From: a virus
DNA length: 45,148 bases
Direction: 5' to 3' (one strand)
Virus record (IMG/VR): IMGVR_UViG_3300010297_001898
Coordinates: 1 to 45,148 of that record
Within the stretch, counting starts at the first letter, position 1. Every line of letters begins with the position of its first letter. Under the pieces are notes generated by a model. The model was not told the origin of the DNA. It saw nothing but the letters and a program-made list of their open reading frames with translations, and did no database searches. The position numbers and the translations under genes were made by a program. Below, one piece after another: positions 22,512-32,288 of the stretch.

Positions 22512-23408
22512 ATGTCTAAAGAATACTACTATTCTGAAATCTTTCATTCTATTCAAGGCGAAGGCCAATATACAGGAGTTCCAACTGCCTGGTTGAGGTT
22601 CTTTCTCTGCAATCTGCAGTGTAACGGTTTTGGTCAACAGGACCCTACCGATGAGTCAACATATATTCTCCCGTATCAAGATATCGATCCTAATGACTAT
22701 AAAGTTATGGAGGACTTACCTGTTTTTGAATTTGGTTGTGATTCATCGTATTCGTGGTCAAAAAAATTCAAGCAGCTGCAGCGTATCGGTACGGTAGAAA
22801 AAATTGCATCTATTATTCGAATTCATATGAAGAGTGATTGGAACCCTCGAGGTTTATTCAACTTTAATGATACAAATCAACACATGTGCTTTACAGGAGG
22901 TGAACCTCTTATGAAGCATGGTCAAGAAGCATCAGTCGGTATAATGAAAACGTTTCAAGAAGAAGGAGATGCACCTTTTTCAGTAACTTATGAAACTAAT
23001 GGAACTCAACCCTTGACTGATGACTTTATTTCATACTATAATAGCTTTATTGATGATGGCAGAGAACTGTTCTTTTCAGTGTCTCCAAAGCTATGGTCAG
23101 TGGCTGGTGAGAAAGCAAAGAAAGCTATCAAGCCAGAAGTAGTTAAGAAGTATTCAGAGCTATCCCCTAGCGGTCAATTAAAGTTTGTCATTAACGGAAC
23201 TAAAGAGTCTTGGGACGAAATGGAAGACGTTATTGACAACTTTAGGGCTGTGGGTTGTAATTATCCTGTATGGGTAATGCCTGTCGGAGCTACTGTTGAA
23301 GGACAGAAGCTAGTCGATGGAGATGTCGCGCATGAAGCATTCAAGCGTGGTTATAATGTGGCAGCTAGAGTGCACACATACCTTTTCGGTAATCTAATTG
23401 GAGTCTAA
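22512..23408 (+). CDS. queE: 7-carboxy-7-deazaguanine synthase QueE (radical SAM)
   Basis: Radical SAM enzyme that contracts the pterin ring of 6-carboxytetrahydropterin to 7-carboxy-7-deazaguanine. The product has 298 residues, longer than E. coli QueE (223). The N terminus EIFHSIQGEGQYTGVPTAWL is diagnostic, followed by LCNLQCNGFG (Cys33 and Cys37) and, after an insertion, FGCDSSY (Cys76). CFTGGEPL is the SAM-binding glycine motif. The usual CxxxCxxC is thus split, with the third ligand probably Cys76. It heads a run with yhhQ, queD and folE. Confidence 0.92.
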   Translation: MSKEYYYSEIFHSIQGEGQYTGVPTAWLRFFLCNLQCNGFGQQDPTDESTYILPYQDIDPNDYKVMEDLPVFEFGCDSSYSWSKKFKQLQRIGTVEKIASIIRIHMKSDWNPRGLFNFNDTNQHMCFTGGEPLMKHGQEASVGIMKTFQEEGDAPFSVTYETNGTQPLTDDFISYYNSFIDDGRELFFSVSPKLWSVAGEKAKKAIKPEVVKKYSELSPSGQLKFVINGTKESWDEMEDVIDNFRAVGCNYPVWVMPVGATVEGQKLVDGDVAHEAFKRGYNVAARVHTYLFGNLIGV

Positions 23409-23411
23409 AAT

Positions 23412-24005
23412 ATGTTAGGTATTGATTTTAGTCAAGTTAATCGTAGCTTGATGATCAAGCTTGCACTGATGCATGTATTCATCATCGGTCTTGCAAATTA
23501 TGTAGTTCAGTTCGGTGGTATAATTCCTATCGTCGATCTAAAATTCACTTGGGGAATGTTTGTATTCCCGTTAGTAGTTGTTGCTACTGACTTGACAGTA
23601 CGTTTAACCAACAAGTATCTTGCACGTGCAGTAGTAGGTGCAGCATTTGTACCCGCTATTATTATTAGCGGCTTTATCGCTGATTGGCGTATTGGTTTTG
23701 CTAGTGCATTTGCGTACTTAATTGGTCAGCTGTTTGATATTACAATCTTCCAGCGCATTCGTGAGCGTATGACTGATATGTGGTGGGTAGCACCTGCTCT
23801 ATCAACAGTAGTAGCAAACGTCGTTGATACTTACTTGTTCTTCTGGGCAGCTTTTGCTGGAGGTACAAACGAGTTTATGGCAGCTAATTGGCTTGAAATT
23901 GCAACTGTAGATGTATTCTTTAAGATAGGTACTTCTTTAATTGTATTCCTTCCAGTCTATGGTATTCTACTTTCATACTTGCGTAAGCGTATGTTGGTCG
24001 ACTAA
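23412..24005 (+). CDS. yhhQ: Queuosine precursor transporter YhhQ
   Basis: Inner-membrane importer of preQ0/preQ1, 197 residues (E. coli YhhQ is 221). About six hydrophobic segments can be seen. Matching family blocks are VDLKFTWGMFVFPLVVVATD, LTVRL, YLIGQLFDITIFQRIRER, WWVAPALSTVVANVVDTYLF and VDVFFKIGTSLIVFLPVYGI, which run parallel to E. coli YhhQ. Its position between queE and queD shows it serves the 7-deazaguanine pathway by adding uptake of precursors from outside or retaining salvage. Confidence 0.92.
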   Translation: MLGIDFSQVNRSLMIKLALMHVFIIGLANYVVQFGGIIPIVDLKFTWGMFVFPLVVVATDLTVRLTNKYLARAVVGAAFVPAIIISGFIADWRIGFASAFAYLIGQLFDITIFQRIRERMTDMWWVAPALSTVVANVVDTYLFFWAAFAGGTNEFMAANWLEIATVDVFFKIGTSLIVFLPVYGILLSYLRKRMLVD

Positions 24006-24037: not shown

Positions 24038-24490
24038 ATGAAATATTTTTCAACTAAAACATATGGCCATGAGAGAGGACTCTCATGCGCCTTCCGTCAA
24101 CCAAATGCTACTCACAGTCATTGTAGTTTAATTCATGGTTATGCATTGTCATTTAAATTTACTTTTGGATGTGATAATCTAGATGATAAAAACTGGGCAG
24201 TTGACTTTGGCGGATTAAAAGAATTAAAGCAGTGGTTAGAAGATAACTTTGATCATACTACTGCAGTAGATAAAGACGATCCTTTCTTACCAGACTTTCT
24301 TGAGATGGAGAAGAAAGGATTGATGAAAGTAAATGTGATGGATGGTGTAGGATGTGAAAAGTTCGCACAACATGCATACATCTTTGCAGATAAGTTAATT
24401 AGAGATCAGACTAATAATAGGTGCTGGTGTCAAGAAGTAGAAGTGAGAGAGCATGGTGCAAATAGTGCACTAGTTAAGGATGGTTATTAA
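24038..24490 (+). CDS. queD: 6-carboxy-5,6,7,8-tetrahydropterin synthase QueD
   Basis: QueD converts dihydroneopterin triphosphate (made by FolE) to 6-carboxytetrahydropterin, 150 residues. Family features are THSHCSLIHGY with catalytic Cys29 and zinc His33, the segment WAVDFGGLKELKQWLED, FDHTT with catalytic Asp-His, and a late Glu near EVEVREHG. The usual HGH zinc motif reads HGY here, and extra His residues (His26, His28) lie close by. This sequence type resembles a subgroup seen in alphaproteobacteria. It overlaps the folE start by one base. Confidence 0.88.
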   Translation: MKYFSTKTYGHERGLSCAFRQPNATHSHCSLIHGYALSFKFTFGCDNLDDKNWAVDFGGLKELKQWLEDNFDHTTAVDKDDPFLPDFLEMEKKGLMKVNVMDGVGCEKFAQHAYIFADKLIRDQTNNRCWCQEVEVREHGANSALVKDGY

Positions 24491-25179
24491 TGGGTAAGGT
24501 GGCAAGTGCAGTTATTGAAAGCATGATCAAAGATGGTAAACGTTTTTGGGCTGGAGATAATGTATCAGATTATATGAGTGAAGAGACGAAAAAAGCTCTG
24601 ATCGAAGAAACTACAGAAGCATTTGAAGGTGTATTAGATTGTTTGTTAATTGATAGAGCAAACGATCCTAATTCACATGGTACAGCAAGACGATTAGCTA
24701 AGATGTACTTTAATGAGATTATGGCTGGTCGTTATGATGAAAGACCAGCTGCCACAGCGTTTCCTAATCAAGGTCCTGATGCATATACTGGTATGCTTGT
24801 AGTAAGGTCTGAGCTTAGGTCTATATGTTCCCATCACCATCAACCAGTAAATGGTGTAGCATACATTGGAATTATTCCAAGTGAGAAGGTTATAGGACTA
24901 TCTAAATATACACGTATTGCGCAATGGTGTGCTCGTAGAGGTACATTACAAGAAGAGCTTGCTAATGATATCTCAAAAGAGATCCAGAAAGCAACAGGTA
25001 GTCAAGATGTAGGAGTATACATTCAAGCTACTCATGGATGTTGTGAAAATCGAGGTATTATGGCTCATAGTTCACTTACACAAACTACAGTGTTAAAAGG
25101 GTACTTTCATCATGACCATGGTACTAAAAAAGAGTTTATGGATAATATTAAACTACAACAAGAGTTTGCACCTAGATGA
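24490..25179 (+). CDS. folE: GTP cyclohydrolase I FolE
   Basis: First step of the pathway: GTP to dihydroneopterin triphosphate. The product has 229 residues (E. coli FolE is 222). Zinc ligands are visible in ICSHHHQP (Cys113, His116 region) and THGCCENRG (Cys184 region), with substrate residues in GLSKYTRIAQ and the QEELANDI helix. The canonical CEHH motif reads CSHH here. The gene starts one base inside the queD stop and overlaps the Fe-S carrier gene by four bases. Folate synthesis is a possible side role, but the queD-queE context indicates deazaguanine synthesis. Confidence 0.93.
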   Translation: MGKVASAVIESMIKDGKRFWAGDNVSDYMSEETKKALIEETTEAFEGVLDCLLIDRANDPNSHGTARRLAKMYFNEIMAGRYDERPAATAFPNQGPDAYTGMLVVRSELRSICSHHHQPVNGVAYIGIIPSEKVIGLSKYTRIAQWCARRGTLQEELANDISKEIQKATGSQDVGVYIQATHGCCENRGIMAHSSLTQTTVLKGYFHHDHGTKKEFMDNIKLQQEFAPR

Positions 25180-25457
25180 TAACACTGACTGAGTCAGCAC
25201 AAAAATACTTAGAAGAAGTCGGACAACCAAACGTATGGCTATCAGTCAAAGGCGGTGGTTGCTCCGGCTTTCAGTATGTATGGGATACAACAGATAAAGA
25301 GCCTACAATAGGTAATCTTGCTATTGATCCGATCGCTGAGATGTTTGTACTAGGATGCACAGTCGATTACGTAACAGAATTAGGGGGTTCATACTTGAAA
25401 GTCATCAATCCGAACGCTACTGCCTCCTGTGGATGCGGGGAATCTTTCGCCGTATAA
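25176..25457 (+). CDS. A-type Fe-S cluster carrier (IscA/ErpA/HesB-like)
   Basis: The product has 93 residues. The three conserved cysteines of A-type carriers are present, one in GGGCSGFQYVW and two in ASCGCGESF. These proteins deliver Fe-S clusters to target enzymes. It is the last gene of the queE operon, and QueE is the obvious local [4Fe-4S] client, though delivery to host proteins is equally possible. Similar genes occur in many marine phages. A terminator-like hairpin follows directly. Confidence 0.88.
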   Translation: MITLTESAQKYLEEVGQPNVWLSVKGGGCSGFQYVWDTTDKEPTIGNLAIDPIAEMFVLGCTVDYVTELGGSYLKVINPNATASCGCGESFAV

Positions 25458-27265: not shown

Positions 27266-27645
27266 TGAAGCAGTATACACAAGGTGGAGTAGTTTACTTG
27301 GTTGATTTTATTAATCGAGAAACTAAAGCAGTAGACTTTCAAAAGTTTGGTCATACTCGTTTTGTTGATGTCGCTGATAGGTTTAAAGTGGAACCCGATC
27401 AGTACGCTAAGTGGGAAATTAGAGTACTCGCAAAAGCACATAATAATGATATAGAAAAAGTTAAAGGCGCAGAAGAAGCTTTTCATTCTGTATTTCCGAA
27501 AAACCTCTGGATCGAAGAAAAGATTGGAGGAGTAACTGAAATAGTTGAAATGGATGGTAAAACACGCTATAATGCAATACAGTGTGTAAGACGTCTTAAC
27601 GAAAAATGGAAAAAAGAGAAGTCACGATATGAAAATAGCGCATGA
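27262..27645 (+). CDS. T5orf172/GIY-YIG-like small protein
   Basis: The product has 127 residues. The start GGVVYLVDF, then FQKFGHTRFVDVADRF, then a strand KWEIRVLAKA and an acidic helix EEAFHSVFP follow the core plan of T5orf172/GIY-YIG nuclease-like domains: a VYLV strand, a KFGhT element with Arg, and a conserved Glu helix. The canonical GIY tripeptide is altered, so nuclease activity is uncertain. It could act in DNA binding or cutting. It overlaps dpdA by 17 bases. Confidence 0.5.
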   Translation: MMKQYTQGGVVYLVDFINRETKAVDFQKFGHTRFVDVADRFKVEPDQYAKWEIRVLAKAHNNDIEKVKGAEEAFHSVFPKNLWIEEKIGGVTEIVEMDGKTRYNAIQCVRRLNEKWKKEKSRYENSA

Positions 27646-28459
27646 AGCTCCATTGAGCATTATGAATCAAGTGCAAAGAGTTACTGATTATGATTATGCT
27701 CTAGTACATCTATTTAAGGATAGTGAACCATACTATGGATTCTTTCAACGAGCATTGCAAGATGGGCGTGAAGTAATTCTAGATAACTCTATCTTTGAAC
27801 TCGGTACTGCATTTACAGGTAATGAATTTGCTTATTGGGTTACTAATTTATCTCCTACTTGGTATATTGTGCCAGATGTCTTAGACAACGCAGATGCTAC
27901 TATTAATAGCTTTGAGACGTTTATGGATGAATTTTCTGGCTTACCAGGTAAAGCTATTGCAGTAGCTCAAGGTGAAACATATAATGATGTAGTGCGTTGT
28001 TATAATTATTTTAAGAGCGATTCTCGAGTAGAAAAGATTGCATTCTCGTTTAATCATCCTTTCTATCAAACTGAATTTTCTGATGCACCTACGAAGTATC
28101 ATGCTATGATGAAAGGTAGACAGCAGATGATTAGCAGGTTGATAGCTGAGAATGTTATTGATACTAATAAGCCGCATCATTTGTTAGGGTGCGGCCTACC
28201 TCAAGAGTTTAAATTCTATAAAGAGATGCATTGGATTGATTCAGTAGATACTTCTAATCCGGTGATGCATGGTATGCATGATATCAGGTATACACCAGAG
28301 GGTCTAGAGAATAAAGAGTCTGTAAAGATGCATACTCTTATGGAAGAAGACTATACAGATAAGATTGGTCTTATCTATAGTAACATTGCTACGTTTAGAG
28401 GTTTTTGTAATGGCGAAAGAGAAGAAATGGATATCAATCTTCTCTCAGAGTGGCTCTGA
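27629..28459 (+). CDS. dpdA: DpdA-type DNA 7-deazaguanine transglycosylase
   Basis: Predicted enzyme that swaps guanine in DNA for a 7-deazaguanine base, 276 residues. Although short, it has the tRNA-guanine transglycosylase elements in order: ILDNSIFELG with Asp52, YIVPDVLDN with Asp83, AVAQGE at 112-116, LLGCGLPQEF at 185-194, and SVDTSNP with Asp207, the candidate nucleophile. There is no room for the RNA-binding or zinc domain of tRNA enzymes, as expected for phage DpdA. It lies among queC, D, E, F and folE and overlaps a formyltransferase gene by 50 bases. Confidence 0.85.
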   Translation: MKIAHEAPLSIMNQVQRVTDYDYALVHLFKDSEPYYGFFQRALQDGREVILDNSIFELGTAFTGNEFAYWVTNLSPTWYIVPDVLDNADATINSFETFMDEFSGLPGKAIAVAQGETYNDVVRCYNYFKSDSRVEKIAFSFNHPFYQTEFSDAPTKYHAMMKGRQQMISRLIAENVIDTNKPHHLLGCGLPQEFKFYKEMHWIDSVDTSNPVMHGMHDIRYTPEGLENKESVKMHTLMEEDYTDKIGLIYSNIATFRGFCNGEREEMDINLLSEWL

Positions 28460-28949
28460 GATCGTTGCGTTAGGAGAGAAGCTAGGTTTCTCTCCTGACT
28501 ATATTTTTACTAATAATAGTAATACAGCTGATTGGCATCCTGATTTAAATCGTAATAATAAAGTACGAGTTTACTCACATAAAGGTATAGAGGAAACTCT
28601 AGAGATCTTTAGTGAACAATATGATTGTTTTGTTACCCTCCATGGATACTTACGTATTCTTAGTCCTAAGATATGTAACCTACCTTTAGACATCTATAAT
28701 GGGCACCCTGGTGCTATTGATATGTACCCAGAATTAAAAGGTAAAGATCCACAAGAAAAGGTGTGGACTAATCTAGCAAAGTATACTACTATAGGATCAG
28801 TGGTACATAAAGTTACTGCCGTAGTTGATGACGGTGATATTGTTAGCAGTGTTCATTATGTTAATAGATGTAGTACAAAAGAAGAATTATATAGCAAGTT
28901 GAGAGAAGCCTCTCTTCAATGCTGGTATCTATTTATGGTGAGGGTATAA
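28410..28949 (+). CDS. Formyltransferase, candidate dPreQ1 formyltransferase (DpdN-like)
   Basis: The product has 179 residues from the ATG at 28410, which lies inside the end of dpdA; starting at 28365 would add unrelated residues. It has the N10-formyltetrahydrofolate transferase core: VTLHGYLRILSP, YNGHPGAIDMYP with Asn97 and His99, then IGSVVHKVTAVVDDGDI with Asp140/141. These match the catalytic Asn, His and Asp of the purine formyltransferase fold. Fused reading with dpdA and nearby queF make formylation of the preQ1 base in DNA the best role. Formylation of sugars or nucleotides is the alternative. Confidence 0.78.
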   Translation: MAKEKKWISIFSQSGSEIVALGEKLGFSPDYIFTNNSNTADWHPDLNRNNKVRVYSHKGIEETLEIFSEQYDCFVTLHGYLRILSPKICNLPLDIYNGHPGAIDMYPELKGKDPQEKVWTNLAKYTTIGSVVHKVTAVVDDGDIVSSVHYVNRCSTKEELYSKLREASLQCWYLFMVRV

Positions 28950-28950
28950 A

Positions 28951-29484
28951 ATGAAAATTGGTATTGCTGGGACTCATAGTACTGGTAAGACGACTTTGCT
29001 TAATGCATTGCGTTCAGAAGATATGTTTAAAGACTATGAGATCTGCGATGAAGTAACTAGACAGGTGCGTAGTTGGGGTTTCGATATTAACGAAGCTGGT
29101 AATGATATTACGCAACGTCTAATTATGATGAAGCATATTGAAAATGTATTCATGTATGATGATATGATTACTGATAGAGTTTGTCTTGATGGTCTTGTAT
29201 ATACGAGATGGCTCTATGAGAATGATAAAGTATCTGGTGATACATTTCTATTTGCAGAAGAAGTATTTGATAAAGTTTGGTCTGAATATGATGTGGTATT
29301 CTGGTTACGTCCTGAGTTTGCATTAGTAGAAGATGGAACTAGGTCTATGGATCTAAACTTTCGTAATGAGATCGATAACTTGTTTGAGCATTATGTGACT
29401 AGTAAAAACTTAAATGTAGTCAAGTTATCTGGTTCGGTACGAGAACGTGTAAATAAGGCATTAGAGGTATTAAATGAGCAATAA
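28951..29484 (+). CDS. P-loop NTPase, NadR/AAA_28-like kinase
   Basis: The product has 177 residues. Walker A is GTHSTGKT at residues 7-14, CDEVTRQVR follows near residue 34, and a later FWLRPEF lies at the place of a lid or Walker B strand. The layout resembles small AAA/NadR-type kinases that phosphorylate nucleosides or ribosides. It sits between the formyltransferase and queF. A nucleotide role linked to the modified base is possible, but no substrate can be read. It starts one base after the previous stop and overlaps queF by 11 bases. Confidence 0.7.
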   Translation: MKIGIAGTHSTGKTTLLNALRSEDMFKDYEICDEVTRQVRSWGFDINEAGNDITQRLIMMKHIENVFMYDDMITDRVCLDGLVYTRWLYENDKVSGDTFLFAEEVFDKVWSEYDVVFWLRPEFALVEDGTRSMDLNFRNEIDNLFEHYVTSKNLNVVKLSGSVRERVNKALEVLNEQ

Positions 29485-30433
29485 AGACATTCTTAACGAT
29501 CTTGTATCAGTTCATCTCGGTAAAGCAGGAGACGGTTCAGTCGTAAAACCGTATGTGACTCCTGATGAGATTGATGCGAGCCTACTTGTACCTGTACCGC
29601 GTAATTTAAATCGCGAACAGTATGATATTAACGAAGATGACTTACCATTTGAAGGTTTTGATACATGGAACTGTTATGAAGTATCAGCTCTTCTAGAAAA
29701 TGGATATCCAGTATCTGGTGTAGTTAAACTGACTTACCCAGCTAGTTCGAAGTTTATTGTAGAGTCAAAATCACTTAAACTATATTTGAACTCTTTCAAT
29801 ATGGCTAGAGTAGCTAAAACGTTGACTGATGCAATTGGTAATATAGAGAAGCAAATCTATGAAGATCTAACCAAAGCATTAGAGGTAGAAGAATTTGATG
29901 TAGATGTAGCGTTTTATGATTATAAAACTCAAGAAGATTTTAATCGGGCTCCAGATGCAGTTAAAAATGTATTCACACCACTAGAAGATCTAGTAGATAT
30001 AGAAGACATGGAGTTCAAAGAATATAATGAAGACCCTGATATTCTTGAAGTAGTAGATAATAATTCAATGTTCAGTTACCGTGTAACTAGTAATGCATTG
30101 AGATCTAACTGCCGTGTTACTAATCAACCTGACTGGGGTGATGTATATATTGCAATTGATGGACCGCAAGTAGTAACTCCTGAATCATTATTGCGTTATA
30201 TTGTATCGATGAGACGTGAGAATCATTTTCATGAAGAGATTTGTGAGTGTATCTATAAGAGATTGTATGATATTCTTCCACGTGAGAGTAATATTGCAGT
30301 AATATGTTTATATACTCGTAGAGGTGGTATTGATATTAACCCTGCTCGTGGAACAGATGAGTACTACTTAGATTCATTTGCAAGAGCTCTTAGCGATCCA
30401 TATGATGCACATAAAAAGACTGCGAGGCGATAA
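29474..30433 (+). CDS. queF: NADPH-dependent preQ0 reductase QueF
   Basis: Nitrile reductase converting preQ0 to preQ1, 319 residues, the long two-domain (unimodular) type as in E. coli QueF (282). The N-terminal domain has WNCYEVSALLENGYP and FIVESKSLKLYLNSFNMARV, the QueF signature. The C-terminal domain has SNCRVTNQPDWGDV with Cys213 (covalent thioimide) and Asp220, seven residues apart as in E. coli, then ENHFHEEICE and LYTRRGGIDINPARG. The NADPH-binding ESKS element is present. QueF makes preQ1 the expected end product of the local pathway. Confidence 0.93.
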   Translation: MSNKDILNDLVSVHLGKAGDGSVVKPYVTPDEIDASLLVPVPRNLNREQYDINEDDLPFEGFDTWNCYEVSALLENGYPVSGVVKLTYPASSKFIVESKSLKLYLNSFNMARVAKTLTDAIGNIEKQIYEDLTKALEVEEFDVDVAFYDYKTQEDFNRAPDAVKNVFTPLEDLVDIEDMEFKEYNEDPDILEVVDNNSMFSYRVTSNALRSNCRVTNQPDWGDVYIAIDGPQVVTPESLLRYIVSMRRENHFHEEICECIYKRLYDILPRESNIAVICLYTRRGGIDINPARGTDEYYLDSFARALSDPYDAHKKTARR

Positions 30434-30585: not shown

Positions 30586-30908
30586 AGGATAAAAACGTTG
30601 AATCAGTACGCCAGATGCTCTATAATAGAATGGAGACTGGATATAAGAAGTACGGTGTAACTACCGAACGTACTGATATAGATTTACAAGGATGGCTACA
30701 GCATCTACAAGAAGAGTTGCTTGATGCGGCCGTCTATATTGAAAGGCTAAAAGATGAACTTACACAAACTAGATTACATGAGAGTACTGGAGCAGGAAGT
30801 AGCAACTCTTCGTACTCGTCTACAACCTCACGATACGGGGCATATCCATACGACTATAAGCACGTTACAGTCACGTATAAAGGAGATCGAGGAAGAGGTA
30901 AAAAATGA
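30582..30908 (+). CDS. MazG-like small protein
   Basis: The product has 108 residues. The first 60 contain the pattern RMETGYKKYGV, then DLQGWLQHLQEELLDAAVYIERL, typical for short phage MazG-like nucleotide pyrophosphohydrolase-type proteins with acidic metal-binding helices (EELLDA). After about residue 62 the sequence becomes a Ser/Thr/Tyr-rich tail without family likeness. In the same bases, the +1 frame encodes a coiled-coil-like protein. So the true C terminus, or frame, of this gene is uncertain. Confidence 0.65.
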   Translation: MKDKNVESVRQMLYNRMETGYKKYGVTTERTDIDLQGWLQHLQEELLDAAVYIERLKDELTQTRLHESTGAGSSNSSYSSTTSRYGAYPYDYKHVTVTYKGDRGRGKK

Positions 30909-30939
30909 AACTAAAACAAGCTTTGAACTCTCTGCCTGA
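30754..30939 (+). CDS. Overlapping +1-frame ORF with coiled-coil character
   Basis: A 61-residue ORF, or 53 residues from a second ATG at 30778. It reads YMRVLEQEVATLRTRLQPHD then TGHIHTTISTLQSRIKEIEE, a regular helical pattern, and the HDTGHIHTTI stretch looks like a conserved phage protein. It overlaps the MazG-like gene by 155 bases and queC by 35 bases. It is more protein-like than the tail of the MazG-like frame, so either it is a nested gene or the two are joined by a frameshift. Confidence 0.5.
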   Translation: MNLHKLDYMRVLEQEVATLRTRLQPHDTGHIHTTISTLQSRIKEIEEEVKNETKTSFELSA

Positions 30940-31660
30940 TACAGGTAAAAATGTATTAGCAGTATTATCAGGTGGTCTTGATTCTTCTATCATGACTATG
31001 ATGCTGGTAGAAAAATATGGAGCTGACCGAGTAGTCGCCCTATCATATAATTATGGTCAAAAGCAAAAGATCGAATTAACTAAAGCTAAAGAATTATGTG
31101 CTCATCTAAACGTGAAGCATAAAGAGCTTGATCTAGGTATCTTAGGAGAGATTGCTAAGCCAATCTCTGCTAACATTGGTGGTACTGATGTAGCGATGCC
31201 TACGATTAAGGATGTGTTAGGGGATCCTCAGCCTAAGACATATGTGCCATTTCGTAATCTCATCCTCCTCTCTCTGACAATGGCACAGGCTGAGTCCTCT
31301 AACGCATCGCATGTATTTACAGGTCTACAAGTACATGATGAATATGGCTATTGGGATACATCGCAGAAGTTTGTTGATAGTCTTAATGCTGTAGCAGTAC
31401 AGAATAGAACTCATCAGGTTTCTATTATGGCTCCTTTCTCTCATCTATCTAAACAACAAGAGATTGAAATCTGTAAAGAGATTGGTAAAGAGGATTTGCT
31501 TATTCATACTCTTACTTGTTATGATCCAGATGAAGAAGGTCGTAGCTGCGGCAAATGTCCTTCATGCGCAGAACGTATTATGAACTTTGCTAAGGCAGGT
31601 ATGGTAGATCCTATTCCATATCAGAAAGAAATACCTTGGAGTGATATAATTAATGTGTAG
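30905..31660 (+). CDS. queC: 7-cyano-7-deazaguanine synthase QueC
   Basis: ATP-dependent enzyme that turns 7-carboxy-7-deazaguanine and ammonia into preQ0, 251 residues (E. coli QueC is 231). The PP-loop SGGLDS is at residues 22-27. The substrate region YVPFRNLILLSLTMAQAE and the zinc site with Cys205, Cys215, Cys218 and Cys221 (CGKCPSC) are complete. It starts in the MazG-like stop (ATGA) and overlaps a class II glutamine amidotransferase gene by 8 bases, which is of interest as a possible ammonia source. Confidence 0.95.
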   Translation: MKLKQALNSLPDTGKNVLAVLSGGLDSSIMTMMLVEKYGADRVVALSYNYGQKQKIELTKAKELCAHLNVKHKELDLGILGEIAKPISANIGGTDVAMPTIKDVLGDPQPKTYVPFRNLILLSLTMAQAESSNASHVFTGLQVHDEYGYWDTSQKFVDSLNAVAVQNRTHQVSIMAPFSHLSKQQEIEICKEIGKEDLLIHTLTCYDPDEEGRSCGKCPSCAERIMNFAKAGMVDPIPYQKEIPWSDIINV

Positions 31661-32288
31661 TATTATTGGTTCTTTCTCTACGGATAAGATCGTTGAACTA
31701 GCTAAGTTAAACGAATATCGAGGTACATATTCTCATAGTATCACGTATATACATAGGTATACTATGAGTATCCTTAGCGTCTCCCGGGGGGAAGGACCTT
31801 TACTATATGATACTATAAGAGTACCAGATGATCATTATTGCATTGTTCATCAACAAGCTCCTACGACTGATAAGTCATTAGATAATATTCACCCTGCTTC
31901 TATTGGTAATCATCTCTTGTGGCATAATGGTATTATTAAAGAAAAAGAAATAAAACGCTTGCAATCTAAACATGAATCAACATATAATTGGGATACTAAA
32001 TTAATCCTTAGACAGTTGATTGATGATGATACCCCTGATGATATCGACGGAACGTTTAGTTGTGTATGGTACGATGGGTCAGATATTTTAGTGTTTAGAA
32101 ATGAAATAAGTCCTCTATTCATAGACGACGAGCTAAATATTTCATCAACGAAATTTGACGGTAGCAGTTCTATCGAACCAAACATTATGTTCACGCTTGG
32201 TACTTCCCACCCTAAACATAATCTACCGATACTTGAACCTGTAGGTGAGTTCTCAACTGTAGAGAACCCTTATTATTTTGGAGAATAA
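31653..32288 (+). CDS. Stand-alone class II glutamine amidotransferase
   Basis: The product has 211 residues and is only a glutaminase domain. Cys2 after the initiator Met (MCSIIGSF) is the N-terminal nucleophile, and other family marks are a RG.YSHS stretch, VHQQAPTT in place of the usual HxRxAT, HPASIGN, LLWHNGII and DGTFSCVWYD. It releases ammonia from glutamine for a partner. In archaea and some phages such a domain is fused to QueC (Gat-QueC) and amidates preQ0 to archaeosine-type bases. Here it is separate but overlaps queC. Similar stand-alone genes occur in other T4-like phages. Confidence 0.82.
   Translation: MCSIIGSFSTDKIVELAKLNEYRGTYSHSITYIHRYTMSILSVSRGEGPLLYDTIRVPDDHYCIVHQQAPTTDKSLDNIHPASIGNHLLWHNGIIKEKEIKRLQSKHESTYNWDTKLILRQLIDDDTPDDIDGTFSCVWYDGSDILVFRNEISPLFIDDELNISSTKFDGSSSIEPNIMFTLGTSHPKHNLPILEPVGEFSTVENPYYFGE

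Follow-up and report, generated by a model that had tools for sequence, protein, structure and literature searches.

The T4-like phage described here very probably makes its own preQ1, via FolE, QueD, QueE, QueC and QueF, and uses it to modify its DNA with a formylated base. In the proposed pathway, a formyltransferase of the DpdN type would formylate a preQ1-derived base at its aminomethyl nitrogen, with 10-formyl-tetrahydrofolate as the donor, DpdA would exchange guanine in DNA for the deazaguanine, and the main end product would be 2'-deoxy-7-(formylamino)methyl-7-deazaguanosine; substrate, cofactor and product are all inferred. A formyl-deazaguanine pathway has already been proposed from cultured phages; what is new is that hundreds of uncultured viruses carry the formylating gene.

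DpdN was reportedly proposed as a dPreQ1 formyltransferase by Cui et al. 2023, from what are said to be very few cultured phages and with an activity that is predicted only. The named protein presumably comes from a phage of the same type as Flavobacterium phage vB_FspM_immuto_2-6A (MW353175), hereafter immuto. Both the predicted reaction of the proposed DpdN and its gene company match those of the formyltransferase analysed here. Our literature search found no further paper treating DpdN or formyl-dPreQ1.

A predicted gene cluster for deazaguanine synthesis and insertion

The window, that is, the whole stretch of DNA analysed (45,148 nucleotides, positions 1 to 45,148 of IMG/VR virus record IMGVR_UViG_3300010297_001898), comes from an uncultured virus of bacteria. 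The label T4-like is right, because the window carries homologues of T4 structural genes (terminase, tail sheath, portal and major capsid) as well as of T4 replication genes (DNA polymerase, clamp loader, gp46/47 and UvsX). The features of the cluster are as follows.

22512..23408, + strand: queE-like radical SAM protein (phrog_2076, 6.6e-54)
23412..24005, + strand: YhhQ-like queuosine precursor transporter (Vut_1; TIGR00697 above cut-off)
24038..24490, + strand: queD-like 6-carboxytetrahydropterin synthase (PTPS; phrog_2389)
24490..25179, + strand: folE, GTP cyclohydrolase I (GTP_cyclohydroI, 3.5e-39)
27629..28459, + strand: dpdA, predicted DNA-guanine transglycosylase of the immuto/CP220 type, 276 aa (48.5% to immuto DpdA, 41% to CP220 CPT_0056)
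28410..28949, + strand: predicted dpdN-type formyltransferase, 179 aa (Formyl_trans_N; own clade; GAR transformylase the nearest fold)
28410..28459, + strand: overlap of dpdA and the formyltransferase gene, 50 bases (unusually long among 75 measured loci)
28951..29484, + strand: P-loop kinase, AAA_28 / thymidylate kinase-like (AAA_28, 4.2e-15)
29474..30433, + strand: queF, two-domain NADPH-dependent preQ0 nitrile reductase (QueF_N and QueF Pfam)
30905..31660, + strand: queC, preQ0 synthase (QueC, 1.5e-50; NCBIfam TIGR00364 above cut-off)
31653..32288, + strand: separate class II glutamine amidotransferase-like gene, 3' of queC (phrog_12378)

Between folE and dpdA, at 25176-25457, there is also an A-type iron-sulfur carrier (SufA/ErpA-like), which is absent from the other loci compared and might serve QueE.

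A single gene, the AAA_28 kinase at 28951-29484, separates the formyltransferase from queF (29474-30433), so that queF does follow two genes later, as the initial annotation had it. QueF keeps the residues corresponding to C190, D197, H229, E230 and E89 of the E. coli enzyme, together with the NADPH-site motif ESKSxKLYLNSFN, and by these residues is a canonical nitrile reductase. Since every checked catalytic and NADPH-site residue is in place, it should deliver preQ1. A QueF-like amidinotransferase was considered as well and rejected, the NADPH motif being intact.

In the amidotransferase-like gene, Cys2 and an HNG motif are visible, and its homologue in Pseudomonas phage pf16 matches GATase_6 (5e-10). 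The predicted amidotransferase may provide QueC with ammonia, or it may produce a certain amount of archaeosine. A separate gene of this class follows queC in many T4-like phages (the window and pf16, with a relative in nt-1; L108:13719-14357).

The P-loop kinase is 39% identical to CPT_0057 of Campylobacter phage CP220 and 33% to its immuto counterpart. It adjoins this type of DpdA in nearly all loci that were collected by DpdA (L112-L191), and it also accompanies DpdA in Campylobacter phages without QueF or DpdN (L107:7819-8361), a point that, like the amidotransferase-like gene, the initial annotation leaves out.

A formyltransferase family with an altered acceptor side

The 179-residue protein matches Pfam Formyl_trans_N (E=9e-7) and is 42% identical over 96% of its length to a protein of the cultured phage immuto (3e-30). 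Judging from these two matches and the conserved gene order, the observed pair of dpdA and formyltransferase gene is not due to chance. Its AlphaFold model is of high confidence (pLDDT 96.6), with GAR transformylases as the nearest solved structures.

In a tree that also holds PurN, PurU, Fmt, ArnA and other formyltransferases, a long-stemmed branch (100/100) sets all phage relatives apart. The grouping check proposed in the initial annotation thus places the protein outside the purine, Met-tRNA and sampled sugar formyltransferases. Because the outgroup is small (16 sequences) and several of its branches are long, the tree shows separateness and not the nearest kin; the sugar enzymes sampled were few, and some of them are long-branched.

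The catalytic residues were compared among 64 distinct family members. N97, H99 and D140, corresponding to N106, H108 and D144 of E. coli PurN, are kept in all 64. Of the catalytic residues named in the initial annotation, Asn97, His99 and Asp140/141, the first two and D140 therefore stand, while D141 varies among relatives and was rejected, which makes D140 the catalytic aspartate. The folate-side stretch G87-L92, compared with E. coli PurN, is also largely kept. The other side of the pocket is different. N13, H119 and E173 of E. coli PurN, which we take to be the residues of the GAR (acceptor) side, are replaced by E17, D113 and S168 in 64/64 relatives. Such replacements would be expected after a change of acceptor, and the two new invariant acids, E17 and D113, could suit the binding of a guanine-like edge.

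The catalytic triad and fold, the separate clade, the replaced acceptor-side residues, the company of dpdA and queF and the gene order common with immuto together make the identification of the window protein as DpdN well supported, with formylation of a preQ1-derived base as its predicted reaction.

DpdA and its overlap with the formyltransferase gene

DpdA is only weakly linked to tRNA-guanine transglycosylase (TGT) by sequence, and a PDB sequence search with a DpdA profile gave chance matches only. Its AlphaFold model (pLDDT 93) matches both TGT structures (Foldseek E 3.6e-6) and the solved DpdA 7ui4; DpdA thus has the TGT/DpdA fold. Four residues, D52, D83, Q114 and D207, are invariant in 38-39 relatives, and D52 and D207 are candidates for the two catalytic aspartates. 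By sequence identity, the window DpdA groups with immuto DpdA (48.5%) and CP220 CPT_0056 (41%). This type is presumably DpdA3, which has been linked to complete guanine replacement.

The start of the formyltransferase gene had been placed inside dpdA with an overlap of 50 bases, and the coordinates agree. dpdA runs from its ATG at 27629 to a stop at 28459 (276 aa), and the formyltransferase gene from an ATG at 28410, with AGAGG about 8 bases upstream, to a stop whose last base is 28949 (179 aa). The two genes thus have exactly 50 bases in common, 28410-28459. In most of 75 measured loci, the window included, they either abut or share 1-8 bases, the longest overlap being the 50 bases of the window. 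A special function for the overlap was rejected, since the relatives mostly overlap by 1-8 bases: its length is peculiar to the phage of the window and incidental. The extra tail of DpdA (approximately residues 262-276) is of low confidence in the AlphaFold model.

Distribution and gene company

Among 50,697 phage records, the formyltransferase was found in four Flavobacterium immuto records only, so that the immuto phages are its sole cultured carriers. A search of uncultured viral contigs with a two-sequence alignment (window and immuto) found 384 relatives, where the search with the single protein had found none, because its peptide patterns were too specific. With strict patterns, none was found in 84,980 bacterial and archaeal species, each represented by one genome. 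A T4-type major capsid gene is present in 21 of the 27 DpdN-bearing records checked, the large ones among them, so the DpdN module is widespread among uncultured T4-like phages. The expectation that the window would be one of few T4-like examples has to be abandoned in view of these numbers.

The gene order is conserved in about 80 other contigs, some of which are near-copies and not all independent. Of 83 formyltransferase-bearing loci, which include a copy of the window (L002), 80 have dpdA and 79 have queF; in the DpdN loci that reach far enough, QueF is found in 73/73 and DpdA in 72/73. To avoid selection on the formyltransferase, a further 80 loci were fetched by DpdA alone, and 62 of them have 2.6 kb of downstream sequence. 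DpdN occurs in 12 of these, always together with QueF, while another 46 lack DpdN but have QueF, and both are missing from 4. As QueF is thus present in 58/62, this set alone is no proof that DpdN depends on QueF. What it does show is a usual operon of dpdA-kinase-queF, in which some lineages have DpdN after dpdA and ahead of the kinase.

Some loci are arranged differently. In L081, L171, L182 and L187, the formyltransferase gene is about 7 kb from dpdA, yet directly before the kinase and queF. The kinase is missing from some DpdN relatives: L003, L004, L007 and L075, which are among the closest formyltransferase relatives, do without it, and in these loci queC is followed by yhhQ, not by the amidotransferase.

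Alternative explanations

The best sequence and fold matches of the protein are GAR transformylases, and the immuto copy is annotated as one, as are cyanophage proteins. It might then be a phage PurN that boosts the purine supply and stands beside dpdA incidentally. We regard this as highly improbable. What the protein has in common with GAR transformylase is the fold, the N-H-D triad and the folate-side motif; the original acceptor-side residues are gone, N13 and E173 being replaced in 64/64, whereas cyanophage PurN proteins retain both. Moreover, it forms a clade of its own, scores 27 bits against the NCBIfam PurN equivalog, for which the cut-off is 150, and is tied to dpdA and queF in more than 70 loci. 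Some of the weaker matches by profile and by fold are sugar N-formyltransferases, so the acceptor might be not preQ1 but an amino sugar or some other hypermodified group. However, the matched sugar enzymes have about 245-300 residues compared with 179 here, the protein lies outside the sampled ones in the tree, and Pfam and PHROG annotation revealed no amino-sugar genes in the cluster of the window, all of which makes such an acceptor extremely unlikely.

A different question is whether the cluster yields mainly deoxyarchaeosine, or a mixture in which formyl-dPreQ1 is minor. In phage 9g, a Gat-QueC fusion gives dG+ (PMC6884629), and in the window queC adjoins an amidotransferase-like gene, so that the two might work together like a split Gat-QueC. 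Nevertheless, this outcome seems very unlikely. Phage nt-1, which has a relative of the amidotransferase but no QueF and no DpdN, contains mostly dPreQ0, no dPreQ1 and only traces of dG+ (~0.02% of G) (PMC6884629). Furthermore, immuto and L003-type relatives have DpdN without the amidotransferase, and the QueF of the window is canonical. With a split amidotransferase beside queC, some deoxyarchaeosine is possible as a side product.

For the formylation of a preQ1-derived base by DpdN, the acceptor might be either free preQ1 before insertion or dPreQ1 already in DNA. We have a slight preference for the former, because DpdN is small, slightly acidic (median pI 6.3 and net charge -2 among the relatives) and carries no added DNA-binding part.

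Comparison with known systems and implications

The order dpdA-formyltransferase-kinase-queF is common to immuto and the window, with identities of 42% for the formyltransferase, 48.5% for DpdA, 45% for QueF and 33% for the kinase. Like the T4-like window, immuto has a T4-type capsid gene, although a distant one, and its genome is large. Unlike in the window, its dpdA and formyltransferase gene are separated by a small gene, and it has a distant queC elsewhere in the genome, no amidotransferase and a family A DNA polymerase.

A further comparison is with Pseudomonas phage pf16 and the KVP40-type Vibrio phages. In pf16, a QueF 54% identical to that of the window is followed by QueC and the amidotransferase in the same order. 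However, pf16 has a 440-residue DpdA2-like gene in the DpdA slot and no DpdN. The pf16 set is FolE, DpdA2-like, QueF, QueC and amidotransferase, and that of the window is FolE, DpdA-DpdN-kinase, QueF, QueC and amidotransferase; the DpdA slot is where their gene content differs, as though one cassette had replaced another. It is tempting to speculate, though we would rather doubt the scenario as a whole, that in a large uncultured group of T4-like phages a DpdA-DpdN-kinase cassette of the Campylobacter/Flavobacterium type took the slot of the pf16-type DpdA2-like gene, that the free base is formylated by DpdN before its insertion by DpdA, and that most or all guanine in the DNA is replaced by formylated preQ1.

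DpdN is spread among T4-like phages much more widely than the initial annotation assumed, and its predicted activity is readily testable. The hundreds of uncultured members offer many enzymes to assay, and E17, D113 and S168, the invariant residues that set its pocket apart from that of GAR transformylase, are clear targets for mutation. The gene content also forms a series: DpdA with the kinase, the same with QueF, and the same with QueF and DpdN would predict DNA of the dADG, dPreQ1 and formyl-dPreQ1 type, respectively. The calculated [M+H]+ of the formyl-dPreQ1 nucleoside (C13H17N5O5) is 324.1302, or 208.0829 after loss of the deoxyribose, compared with 324.1666 for a dimethyl isobar, 296.1353 for dPreQ1 and 309.1306 for dG+.

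In CP220, the DpdA-like CPT_0056 adjoins the kinase CPT_0057 (41 and 39% identical to their counterparts), as in the window, but QueF, DpdN and the amidotransferase are lacking. Campylobacter phages are reported to be highly modified with dADG, and at the time had no known DpdA (PMC6884629). CPT_0056 (L107:7001-7777), a DpdA relative by its 41% identity that is annotated as 'hypothetical', would be a candidate for their dADG insertase.
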